Source: Alkalinema sp. FACHB-956
GTDB taxonomy: Bacteria > Cyanobacteriota > Cyanobacteriia > Leptolyngbyales > Leptolyngbyaceae
Reading direction: 5' to 3'
Assembly: GCF_014697025.1 (NCBI RefSeq)
Contig: NZ_JACJRC010000009.1
Coordinates: forward strand, 62,001 to 126,000
Length of the DNA stretch: 64,000 nt
In this document: positions 49,831 through 53,658 of the stretch, in pieces
Layout: each line of letters begins with the position of its first letter
How positions within the stretch are numbered: the stretch's first letter is position 1
Made by a program: the position numbers and the translations under genes
The notes under the pieces: model-generated
Told to the model about the DNA's origin: nothing
What the model saw: only the letters and a program-made list of their open reading frames with translations
Database searches by the model: none

Positions 49831-50115
49831 ATGGCTGGAGATGTGATTACCCCTGCAATTAGCGATCGAATCTGTGCCCACATGAATGATGATCATGCCG
49901 ATGCGGTACTGATCTACGCCAAGGTGTTTGGTAATGCGTCCGAGGCCACCGCTGCCAAAATGTTAGCGATCGATCCCGAGGGCATGGACATCAGTGCGGA
50001 GGTGGATGGTCAGGAACAGGCTGTGCGGGTGGCCTTTGACCATACTTTGGCGGATTCGGAAGATGCGCACCAAACGTTGATTGCCATGATTAAGCAGGCG
50101 CGGCAGAAGGGATAG
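49831..50115 (+). CDS. DUF2470 protein
   Basis: A 94-aa protein consisting only of a DUF2470 domain, the fold found at the C-terminus of HugZ-like heme-utilisation proteins and in plant HO-like proteins. Features: ISDRICAHMNDDHADAVLIYAK near residues 10-31, the central MLAIDPEGMDISAEVDG near 43-59, and RVAFDHTLADSEDAHQTLIAMI near 66-87. The His residues of HMNDDHAD are conserved in the family. AAGGAG lies eight bases before the ATG. It is a free-standing gene with a hairpin-rich 3' region: the first 119-bp element lies 54 bases after its stop. Confidence 0.88.
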   Translation: MAGDVITPAISDRICAHMNDDHADAVLIYAKVFGNASEATAAKMLAIDPEGMDISAEVDGQEQAVRVAFDHTLADSEDAHQTLIAMIKQARQKG

Positions 50116-50168
50116 GAGATATTTGTCTAACGGGATAGCGATTGGAGGAACTCGTGAGTTGCGCGATC

Positions 50169-50287
50169 GTCGGGGCTGCTGCGCAGCGAAGATCGGGGAA
50201 CTTCTCCCCTCAAGGCAGTTTACTCTGGCAGAGCGTCAGAGAAACCACCTTGCCCCCTGACATGGCAGGGGACTCTACTCCCCCGAC
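50169..50287 (+). repeat. 119-bp five-way-junction element, copy 1
   Basis: A closing stem GTCGGGG/CCCCGAC encloses four hairpins: GCTG/CAGC; GGGGA/TCCCC (loop ACTTC); a compound stem AAGG-GTTT-CTCTGGC with GTCAGAG-AAAC-CCTT (loop AGAGC); and CCCCTG/CAGGGG. It matches copy 2 at 118 of 119 positions. The flanks are also related, but much more diverged, out to about 50390. See findings. Confidence 0.85.
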
Positions 50288-50436
50288 ACCCCCCGAAAGT
50301 GAATCCTGCGTCCAAGCACAGGGAATTTGTGAGGGACAAATAGCAGCCGTTGAATCCACATTAACGCGAGTTCTGGGGTGGGAGTGGGTATCCTGAGAGG
50401 GTTCCATCCTGCCCCACGTTTTTTGCTGGTCGTCCT

Positions 50437-51540
50437 ATGCAACGCTATGCCTTTGTCTTTTTGGAAATTCTGAGCTGTGAAGGCGGCATTCAGTCCTACG
50501 TGCGCGATATTTTGCGGGCCTATCCTGGGGCGGTGCCAGCGGATGTCTTTTTGCTGCGGGATGGGCCGGAGGTGGAGAATCCCTTTGCCAGCGATCGCCT
50601 GCGCTTCCATTACCTGAAAACAAAGCCTGCGAGTTTGGGACGGCTGCGGCTGGCGGTGCAATTTTTAGCGTATTTAATCCGTTGTCGTCCGCAGCGGGTG
50701 TTCTGTGGTCACATTCATCTTGCACCGTTAATTTCGCCGTTGTGCCAAGCGTTGGGGATTCCGTTGACGATCTTGACCTACGGGAAGGAAGTCTGGGAAC
50801 CGTTACCCCCCCCAAAACAAAAGGCTTTGCAAACCGCCGATCGGGTCTGGACGATTAGCCGCTATTCCCGCGATCGCCTCTGTGCGGCCAATGGTGTGCA
50901 GCCCGATCGGGTGGAGTTTCTCTACTGTGCAGTGGATGGGCAGACATTTCGACCGATGGAGCCGCAGCGATCGTGGCTGGAGCAATACGGTTTAGCAAAC
51001 CATCGGGTCATGATGACGGTGGCGCGGCTGTGGTCAGGGGATCCCTACAAGGGCGTCGATGTGACGATTCGAGCCTTGCCGAAGATTTTGGCGCAGTATC
51101 CCGATGTCAAATATTTAGTGATTGGGCGGGGGGATGACCAGCCCAGGTTGGCGCAGTTGGCAGCGGAATTGGGCGTGGCCGATCGGGTCGTGTTTGCGGG
51201 GTTTGTGCCCACGGCAGAATTACCCCAGCATTACAACTTGGCGGATATCTACGTGATGCCGTCCCAGGAAGGGTTTGGCATTGTCTATTTGGAGGCGATG
51301 GCCTGCGGGGTTCCGGTGCTGTCGGGGGATGGGGACGGATCGGCGGATCCCTTACAGGATGGGCATTTGGGCTGGCGCGTCCCCTATCGCGATCCGGAGG
51401 CCGTGGCGATCGCCTGTTGTGAGATGTTAGCGGGGCAAGATCCGCGCTGTAATGGTGCGATGCTGCGGGAGAAGGTGTTGCATTTGTTCGATCGATCGGC
51501 ATTACAGGCGCGATTAGCAGAATTACTGGCGCAAGGATAG
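50437..51540 (+). CDS. GT4-family glycosyltransferase
   Basis: A retaining GT-B glycosyltransferase of 367 aa. The N-terminal domain begins YAFVFLEILSCEGGIQSYVR (acceptor-side Gly loop near residues 13-16). The C-terminal donor half starts around 180 with VMMTVARLWSGDPYKGVD, has VIGRGDDQPRLAQLA and the family's E-x7-E motif as SQEGFGIVYLEAMACGVPVL near 277-296. It is likely involved in surface or lipid glycan synthesis; sugar specificity is unknown. The gene is bracketed on both sides by nearly identical 119-bp structured elements in direct orientation. No ribosome-binding site is visible before the ATG. Confidence 0.85.
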   Translation: MQRYAFVFLEILSCEGGIQSYVRDILRAYPGAVPADVFLLRDGPEVENPFASDRLRFHYLKTKPASLGRLRLAVQFLAYLIRCRPQRVFCGHIHLAPLISPLCQALGIPLTILTYGKEVWEPLPPPKQKALQTADRVWTISRYSRDRLCAANGVQPDRVEFLYCAVDGQTFRPMEPQRSWLEQYGLANHRVMMTVARLWSGDPYKGVDVTIRALPKILAQYPDVKYLVIGRGDDQPRLAQLAAELGVADRVVFAGFVPTAELPQHYNLADIYVMPSQEGFGIVYLEAMACGVPVLSGDGDGSADPLQDGHLGWRVPYRDPEAVAIACCEMLAGQDPRCNGAMLREKVLHLFDRSALQARLAELLAQG

Positions 51541-51572
51541 GAGTTAACGTGAGTGCGTGGTGTAGCGCGATC

Positions 51573-51691
51573 GTCGGGGCTGCTGCGCAGCGAAGATCGG
51601 GGAACTTCTCCCCTCAAGGCAGTTTACTCTGGCAGAGCGTCAGAGAAACCACCTTGCCCCCTGCCATGGCAGGGGACTCTACTCCCCCGAC
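51573..51691 (+). repeat. 119-bp five-way-junction element, copy 2
   Basis: Same orientation and same fold as copy 1. The single difference (A to C) makes the last hairpin a perfect palindrome, CCCCTGCCATGGCAGGGG. It starts 32 bases after the GT4 stop codon. The flanks remain similar to those of copy 1 out to about 51775. Confidence 0.85.
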
Positions 51692-51773
51692 ACCCAAGTG
51701 AATTTTCTGTCCCAGTACAGGGGATTTGTGAGAGACACTGTCGTTGTCGAACTCCCATCGAATTTACGTGGGG

Positions 51774-52325: not shown

Positions 52326-52561
52326 AGAATGACTCCAAGAAATTTGTAGGGGCGACTTGCAGAGGATTGCTTCCCTTCTGGATCTACAGCGGTGGCCTGG
52401 GGAATCCCTGGGAACCTAGCAGAGACTTAATATTTGCTTATGCCATTGTTCAGAAACGAAAACATAAGGACTGTCTATGATTCGTTCCTATTCGCGATAT
52501 ATTGATCTATTGCAGGTCAAGCTGTACCTTGCAATCTATCGTTGCGCGGGAGCGTCGTCTC

Positions 52562-52873
52562 ATGGCAATGGCCGTTGGAATGATTGAAACTGTGGGCTAT
52601 CCGGCTGTCTTGGCAGCGTCGGATGCCATGCTGAAGGCGGGTCGAGTGGCGTTGGTCAACTACGAAAGCTGTGCCAGCGGTCGCTATATGGTCTCGATTC
52701 GTGGCCCCATTTCTGAGGTGCGATCGGCGATCGAGGCGGGGCTGGAAACGGTGGAGAAGATGCCCGGTGATGCGGAAGTGGTAACCCACGTAATCATCCC
52801 CAATCCCCCGGATAATATTGAAGCGGTGTTGCCGATTTTCTATACGGCTGCTGCTGAACCTTTCCGCATCTAG
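52562..52873 (+). CDS. ccmK: Carboxysome shell protein, CcmK3-like (BMC-H)
   Basis: A 103-aa hexameric shell protein of the beta-carboxysome. The BMC fold is complete: AVGMIETVGYPAVLAASDAM at the start, GRVALVNY, the pore-side loop ESCASGRYMVSI, RGPISEVRSAIEAGLETV and THVIIPNPPDNIEAVLPIFY. The NPPDN segment where CcmK1/2/4 have RPHEN, and RGPISEV in place of RGDVSEV, resemble CcmK3. ATG at 52562 gives the normal MAxAVG start; the frame extends 20 codons upstream but without support. It is the first of three ccmK genes in a row. Confidence 0.88.
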   Translation: MAMAVGMIETVGYPAVLAASDAMLKAGRVALVNYESCASGRYMVSIRGPISEVRSAIEAGLETVEKMPGDAEVVTHVIIPNPPDNIEAVLPIFYTAAAEPFRI

Positions 52874-52942
52874 GTCTACGGATTTTGGACGCGGGAGTTG
52901 AACTGGAACGCTGAATTGGAAGGATTTTTTTAGGAGTTGGTT

Positions 52943-53299
52943 ATGCCACAGGCCGTTGGATCACTGGAGACGAAGGGGTTCCCCGCTATTCTCGCTGCTG
53001 CGGATGCGATGATTAAGGCAGGGCGGGTGACGTTGGTGAGCTATGTCAAGGCGGGAAGTGCCCGGTTTGCGGTGAATATTCGCGGGGATGTGTCGGAAGT
53101 GAAGCGGGCCATGGAAGCGGGCATTGCTGCGGTTGAGACGACCCCTGGCGGCGTGTTGGAAACCTGGGTAATCATTCCCCGGCCCCACGAAAACGTAGAA
53201 GCGGTGATGGATATTGAGTACACCGAGGCGGTGGAAGAGTTCCGGCAGGCGGTGAATGGCTACAGTCTGATTCGGCAGAGTCAGCAGCAATCGTCCTAA
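52943..53299 (+). CDS. ccmK: Carboxysome shell protein, CcmK4-like (BMC-H)
   Basis: A 118-aa BMC-domain protein of the CcmK4 type: MPQAVGSLETKGFPAILAAA, the pore loop VKAGSARFAVNI, RGDVSEVKRAMEAGIAAVET and WVIIPRPHENVEAVMDIEYT. A C-terminal extension of about 20 residues (NGYSLIRQSQQQSS) is longer than in its neighbour. AGGAG lies seven bases before the ATG. It follows the CcmK3-like gene by 69 bases. CcmK3 and CcmK4 form mixed hexamers in other cyanobacteria and adjust shell permeability. Confidence 0.9.
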   Translation: MPQAVGSLETKGFPAILAAADAMIKAGRVTLVSYVKAGSARFAVNIRGDVSEVKRAMEAGIAAVETTPGGVLETWVIIPRPHENVEAVMDIEYTEAVEEFRQAVNGYSLIRQSQQQSS

Positions 53300-53322
53300 G
53301 CTGGGCTGGAGTTAAAGCAATC

Positions 53323-53658
53323 ATGAGCCAAAAAGCTGTTGGGTCTTTAGAGACGATCGGGTGGCCGGGGGTTCTGGCGGCGTCCGATGCGATGGTGAAG
53401 GCGGGCCGGGTGACGCTGGTGAGCTATGTCCGGGCTGGGAGTGCGCGGTTTACGATTAACATCCGTGGGGACGTGTCGGAGGTGGCACGGGCCATGGAAG
53501 CGGGAGTCGAAGCAGCGCAAAATACGCCGGGTGCCCATTTGGTGACCTGGGTCGTGATTCCACGTCCCCATGAGAATGTGGAGGCGGTGCTGAGTATTAA
53601 GTACAACGATAAGGTTGAAGGTTTCCGGCGGAATGTGGAGGGGTTTGGAACGTTCTAG
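53323..53658 (+). CDS. ccmK: Second carboxysome shell protein, CcmK4-like (BMC-H)
   Basis: A 111-aa BMC-domain protein closely similar to the preceding one: SQKAVGSLETIGWPGVLAAS, pore loop VRAGSARFTINI, RGDVSEVARAMEAGVEAAQN and WVVIPRPHENVEAVLSIKYN. GGAG precedes the ATG by 12 bases. It starts 23 bases after the previous stop, and a strong terminator follows at 53742, so the three ccmK genes form one transcript. Satellite loci usually hold one ccmK3 and one ccmK4; here the ccmK4 member is duplicated. Confidence 0.9.
   Translation: MSQKAVGSLETIGWPGVLAASDAMVKAGRVTLVSYVRAGSARFTINIRGDVSEVARAMEAGVEAAQNTPGAHLVTWVVIPRPHENVEAVLSIKYNDKVEGFRRNVEGFGTF

Follow-up and report, generated by a model that had tools for sequence, protein, structure and literature searches.

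Why does one 119-bp sequence, with the potential to form several hairpins, stand twice and almost unchanged on either side of a single glycosyltransferase gene? The locus lies in a stretch of 64,000 nucleotides from Alkalinema sp. FACHB-956 (assembly GCF_014697025.1, contig NZ_JACJRC010000009.1, positions 62,001 to 126,000 of the forward strand), referred to here as the window. The first-pass annotation of this DNA offered two readings, a functional structured RNA or a recently copied non-autonomous element, and considered that the pair might also delimit a cassette movable by recombination. The analysis reported here favours a reading that draws on both of the first two: the features are probably two copies of an IS982-type MITE that is moved in trans and carries a structure-constrained, modular core shared across different carriers, as judged from sequence comparison. 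The features on which this reading depends are listed in Table 1.

Table 1. Features of the locus, in coordinates of the window.
Feature	Coordinates	Strand	Basis or remarks
Copy 1: long form of the conserved structured core, optional hairpin included	50169..50287	+	118/119 positions identical to copy 2; fold z -4.29
Copy 2: long form of the conserved structured core, optional hairpin included	51573..51691	+	Fold z -4.98
Copy 1, optional 43-nt hairpin domain	50210..50252	+	16 pairs computed; loop region GCAGAGCGT
Copy 2, optional 43-nt hairpin domain	51614..51656	+	As for copy 1
Copy 2, whole putative MITE, 212 bp	51547..51758	+	Family alignment with flanks; coordinates read off the sequence
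Copy 2, TIRs	5' remnant ACGTGAGT, 51547-51554; 3' TIR TGTCGAACTCCCAT, 51745-51758	+	
Copy 1, putative MITE, approximate extent	50133..50361	+	Family alignment; limits inferred
DUF2470 protein gene, upstream of copy 1	49831..50115	+	PF10615, 98 bits
GT4 glycosyltransferase gene between the copies, resident, not part of the element	50437..51540	+	PF13692, PF00534

The two copies are in direct orientation and, as first described, differ at a single position. Each is predicted to fold as a closing stem around four hairpins, the longest of them in three segments, which agrees with the fold originally drawn by hand except that this hairpin has one computed pair more than the 15 then counted. The closing stem has 6 pairs in the computed fold of each copy, and the sole mismatch adds a seventh pair to the 6 of the last hairpin, in keeping with the effect ascribed to it. 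Computed folding energies are -56.5 kcal/mol for copy 1 and -59.4 kcal/mol for copy 2, and none of 200 shuffled sequences folds as well as either. The opposite strand of copy 1 folds as well (z -3.56, equalled by 1 of 200 shuffles). The exact five-way junction is a prediction to which comparison lends no support, since the closing stem has no compensatory change among the copies within this genome and, in other genera, the strand on its 3' side finds a local partner instead (GTGGGG with CCCCAC, TTGGGG with CCCCAA). The sequences next to the two copies are moderately similar, as had been observed, with aligned bases equal at 21 of 34 positions on the 5' side and 48 of 65 on the 3' side; they had been taken for decayed flanks and are instead the arms of the MITE itself, not outside sequence.

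The twin pair is not private to this locus. A family search of the source assembly (6.16 Mb, 59 contigs) found 22 matching places: 5 full-length copies (119 bp, 2 of them in the window), 1 truncated copy, 14 short copies that consist of a 78-bp core without the long hairpin and 2 that are mostly deleted. Copies occur in both orientations. In two of the full-length copies (L003 and L004) the region of the first hairpin is tandemly duplicated, just 5' of the core. The copies had first been found via the core, which could bias a comparison of core with arms; a second search, with the 3' arm and the C-rich tail, returned 22 places, 19 already among those found with the core and 3 new. Averaged over pairs of copies, identity reaches 95.2% for the core, 65.2% for the 5' arm and 77.8% for the 3' arm, calculated over 19 of 21 aligned copies (L006 and L021, with truncated or deleted cores, were left out) and with the arm values lowered by the inclusion of copies whose arms are lost or replaced. 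Within the core, 4 of 46 stem positions vary among the copies of this genome, against 11 of 33 unpaired positions (Fisher p 0.0085). The unpaired stretches ACTTC, CTCTACTC and the C-rich tail are conserved as strongly as the stems, which argues that sequence as well as fold is constrained.

When the copies are aligned together with their flanks, the 119-bp unit appears as the interior of a longer element, 141-226 bp in copies with clear ends, that is bounded by TIRs in inverted orientation, 5' ACGTGAGTTCGA (ACGTGAGTTCGAT) and 3' TCGAACTCACGT. Exact 7-bp target duplications (e.g. CGTATTA, CAGGTCA and TAAAATT) adjoin 7 of the 15 copies for which a script could place both ends and were not found at the other 8; among these 15, the ends assigned to the most decayed copies are unreliable. 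Two reduced derivatives keep the ends and have a shortened interior (C4:91549 and C10:23120), and the second of these also has an exact 7-bp duplication. In the window, the ends of copy 2 are still recognisable; copy 1 is more decayed, with degraded outer arms, an uncertain 5' limit and a 3' TIR remnant near 50349-50361. A clear target duplication is seen at neither.

A search with the end sequences located an intact IS on contig C17 in which 12-13 bp at both ends are the same as the ends of the MITE. Its 303-aa transposase belongs to the IS982 family (252 bits against a cut-off of 130; PF13612). An 8-bp repeat, TCGGGTTA, adjoins the ends of this IS and is weak evidence of a target duplication, since the same sequence recurs in nearby tandem repeats. 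The interior of the MITE bears no resemblance to this IS by eye and only the ends are shared, so that the true partner may be a different IS982 relative. A second IS982-family transposase in the genome (C11, 51% identical, one stop) has different ends, also judged by eye. The assignment to IS982-type MITEs is based on TIRs that match an IS of the same genome, on target-site duplications that are present in the family and not clear at the window copies, and on a short element without a transposase gene, the only ORFs of at least 80 aa that overlap a window copy being two of 84 and 128 aa, against the approximately 300 aa needed. The original suggestion of a recently copied non-autonomous element is therefore upheld by the TIRs, by the target duplications of other copies and by a likely IS982 partner in the genome.

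The core extends well beyond this genome. A search with the whole element against 58 genomes, including the source genome, gave matches in 9, and outside the source genome these covered about 50-70 nt of the core. With a 64-nt core as query, the core proved dispersed in relatives, with 20 matches in G014, 12 in G020, a few in G003, G005 and G028 and at least 40 in G009, and there was no match in G007. A covariance model was then built from an alignment, A1, of 49 sequences picked by the analyst; it excludes near-duplicates, second frames of a locus and any copy that carries the optional hairpin, takes two or more rows from several genomes and has some rows that are visibly one column out of register. 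A covariance-model search of cyanobacterial genomes, built from the two copies, had been proposed in the first-pass annotation. The present model finds homologous cores in 33 of 291 genomes (the source genome included) from 24 of 130 sampled genera, with no match in the remaining 258 genomes at the threshold used. Copies per genome range from 1 to at least 40 (G009), the counts from the covariance model being lower bounds, with at most 17 candidates scored per genome. Over the family, the core measures 64-119 nt. Against this model the scores of the window copies are low, at 26.7 and 12.8 bits (E 0.003 and 0.95), as the optional hairpin interrupts it; they are linked to the wider family through the short copies of this genome, for which E is about 1e-8. 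A broad contig scan gave at least 101 matches, among them some in unrelated G/C-rich bacteria that were set aside. Carriage on phages or plasmids was rejected, given that a 96-nt stretch around a relative's core found no match there and that a 19-nt core pattern had no exact match in IMG/VR.

Evidence that the fold is under constraint comes from the comparison between genera, in which stems are kept by compensatory change. In A1, both sides have changed in 5 of 13 pairs, and 30 cells are double-changed against a shuffle mean of 8.7, a count reached by 0 of 500 shuffles and approached by no slid structure (7 at most). These controls ignore the relatedness of the sequences; two of the five measures, the number of double-change pairs (5, attained in 92 of 500 shuffles) and that of additional pair types (9, attained in 313 of 500), do not exceed the shuffles, and one slid structure comes close to the covariation score (0.127 against 0.146). 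The structured part of the initial proposal of a functional structured RNA is thereby supported. A match to IS ends, or many copies without covariation, had been named as findings that would speak against that proposal; an IS-end match is present, and the copies are many but do covary.

Hairpins homologous to the optional one occupy the same place in G012, in two genomes of a single genus (G003 and G032) and in Leptolyngbya sp. ES-bin-22. The optional hairpin thus recurs in at least two other genera, with a covarying stem and a near-constant loop, GCANAGCGW, to which L005 is the exception (GCATTGCGT). Among 9 distinct hairpins, 132 of 144 cells are paired, where 2000 shuffles average 114.7 and reach 125 at best, and 21 are double-changed (mean 7.2, best 14), and the number of pair types is reached by 258 of 2000 shuffles; for this test the window hairpins, which contain a bulge, were placed by hand, identical hairpins were merged, and L006 and the insert of L334 were left out. 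With the window's genome excluded, the 6 remaining hairpins have both sides changed in 6 of 16 pairs and in 11 cells, where 2.9 and 3.7 are expected, the pair count being reached by 2 of 500 shuffles and the cell count by none of 500. A pattern search for the hairpin gave 15 matches, of which the 6 outside the module (L336, L337, L338, L340, L344 and L345) look like chance, and the reversed pattern gave 7. The idea that the 43-nt hairpin also exists on its own in this genome was rejected, as 6 of its 7 pattern matches are inside the element and the remaining one has 3 mismatches. A locus of another genome (L334, in G013:C69) has a different short hairpin, TTCGGCTGAGCGCTCAAGTCGAAG, close to where the optional one would stand, which suggests that the junction at this site tolerates unrelated hairpins.

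In other genera the core is found between other inverted repeats, namely GCTACYGTGTAYACA in elements of 293-323 bp (L117 and L134) and AGCAGGGTGGTTTCA in an element of 291 bp (L149). Of 41 loci examined for such repeats, 11 attained the score limit, some of them (L121 and L132) unconvincing, and many loci were short of flank. In L116, L134, L151 and similar loci (G014 and G009), a G-rich module, CCTTCTGGAGGGGGT...GGGGGACGCAGCCGTCCCC, is situated approximately 75 nt downstream of the core in opposite sense; by eye it looks like a partner of the core, inverted and diverged, that belongs to the same larger repeats.

The core is also present within a protein-coding gene. Six genomes of one genus have it twice in a common stretch of about 3.5 kb, approximately 2 kb apart and in opposite orientation, and in G020 this stretch encodes CobN of the vitamin-B12 pathway (PF02514, 864 bits). 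The inverted pair was considered as the ends of an autonomous element and rejected, as the DNA between is CobN coding sequence. Both copies in L326 (G020:C2) are in-frame without stops and have equivalent places in L327-L331; the CobN reading frame of G028 is likewise open. At the first site the residues between aligned parts number 10 in G000 and 17 in G014, against 84 and 75 in G020. At the second site there are 4 in G014 against 60 in G020, and G000 and G007 align straight through, not shortened.

Two alternatives account for the conservation of the core differently, and both appear unlikely. The core could be a host-functional structured RNA, such as a 3' UTR stabiliser or terminator, that was trapped in a MITE and is kept by regulation at each site. 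A core maintained while the arms decay would suit this idea, as would the covariation of the stems and of the optional hairpin, and both window copies sit after the 3' end of a gene with neither centred in an ORF of at least 100 aa (such an ORF is absent over the element centre in 14 of 21 loci, the window copies included, and measures 101-215 aa in the other 7). Regulation at each site is hard to reconcile with a copy number that varies from 1 to at least 40, with the 258 of 291 genomes that have none at the threshold, and with copies in both orientations and in-frame in CobN, where a terminator would do harm. Known Rfam RNAs were rejected as well, covariance-model searches having returned no match in the window at gathering scores and, for 7 loci at E up to 5, only a snoRNA family (E 3.8) outside the element.

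The second alternative, judged improbable to a like degree, is that near-identity arises mostly from gene conversion or recent duplication among dispersed repeats and that the fold has no function. The two window cores do have variants in common that are absent from the other three full-length copies (A in GTTTACTC and GG in CATGGCAGG), even though their arms differ. Against it stand the compensatory changes that two stems and the optional hairpin show from genus to genus, and stem positions that vary less than unpaired ones within the genome. That the cores are near-identical and the arms divergent suggests that, in addition to constraint, the core has undergone local conversion; gene conversion could contribute part of the core identity.

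The third alternative, in which the two copies and the glycosyltransferase gene between these direct repeats form a mobile cassette, can be dismissed as extremely improbable, since the glycosyltransferase ortholog directly follows the DUF2470 gene in 15 of 15 relatives with fetched loci, just as in the window, and the three remaining full-length copies are on other contigs, one on each. The orthologs are 66-70% identical. The alignment gap between the two genes is 104-232 bp in the relatives and 325 bp in the window, and this greater width fits an insertion. A 183-aa gene downstream was not found in the 15 relatives within the locus DNA examined. Further downstream (52502-53658, + strand), the window has three consecutive ORFs whose products resemble carboxysome shell proteins of the CcmK type.

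In the favoured reading of an IS982-type MITE, an IS982-family transposase would act in trans on the TIRs to move the element, and two copies would have inserted on either side of a resident glycosyltransferase gene. Between the arms, the core comprises H1, H2 (GGGGAACTTCTCCCC), the optional 43-nt hairpin, H3/H4 around CAGGGG...CCCCCGAC and the C-rich tail, and this modular unit is common to repeats with other inverted repeats in other cyanobacteria. The fold would most likely act in a transcript or in single-stranded DNA, where it would stabilise or insulate the element and aid its persistence. A bolder proposal, which is rather less likely than not, is that the core is a portable structured RNA or single-stranded DNA module needed for or favouring spread, passed between unrelated transposon termini, with an optional hairpin whose GCANAGCGW loop may bind a factor.

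Searches of open-access full texts in PubMed Central brought up no description of the core, in line with the first-pass annotation, which knew of no RNA or repeat with this architecture, and the family is apparently undescribed. By analogy, the element is comparable to the modular BOX repeats. BOX elements of Streptococcus are described as small, dispersed, structured and modular, with a middle module that is absent or repeated, and in S. suis the outer pairs boxAC and boxEF surround the same inner module, with TIRs and target duplications (PMC3049150). The family described here similarly has an inner module in common, an optional module and exchangeable outer ends, a likeness in the way they work; unlike in BOX, the common module is a G/C-rich core, the optional part is a single hairpin and the ends of the window family are of IS982 type. 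With IS982-type MITEs it shares ends that match an IS982-family element of the same genome and the 7-bp duplications, and it differs from them in its unrelated interior (as judged by eye) and in a core common to repeats with other ends. The SDRs of Nostoc, which Elhai et al. are said to have reported in 2008, are reportedly dispersed repeats of 21-27 nt with covarying folds, often inside mini-transposons. Compared by description, the present core is longer (64-119 nt).

Other small repeats offer partial parallels. ERIC/RU and Rickettsia palindromic elements, described as small mobile sequences that can also sit in-frame within genes (PMC2759123, PMC3733652), resemble the core within CobN when compared by description, and belong to other phyla. 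REPs are defined in one account as palindromes of 20-40 bp that carry a terminal tag, GTAG or CGTC, on one side (PMC3733652); a tagged REP was rejected here, as the unit is 78-119 bp, has several hairpins and lies inside TIRs. A remote link to tagged REPs may exist, since CGTC precedes the first hairpin. G/C-rich intrastrand triplex motifs, described as abundant in some cyanobacteria (PMC4666352), are likewise G/C-rich repeats, but the covariation found here fits ordinary stems. A covarying, dispersed module that occurs with different ends in 24 of 130 genera provides a comparative handle on why small bacterial repeats keep their folds, and the copies that lie in-frame in CobN suggest that elements of this kind can turn into parts of conserved proteins.
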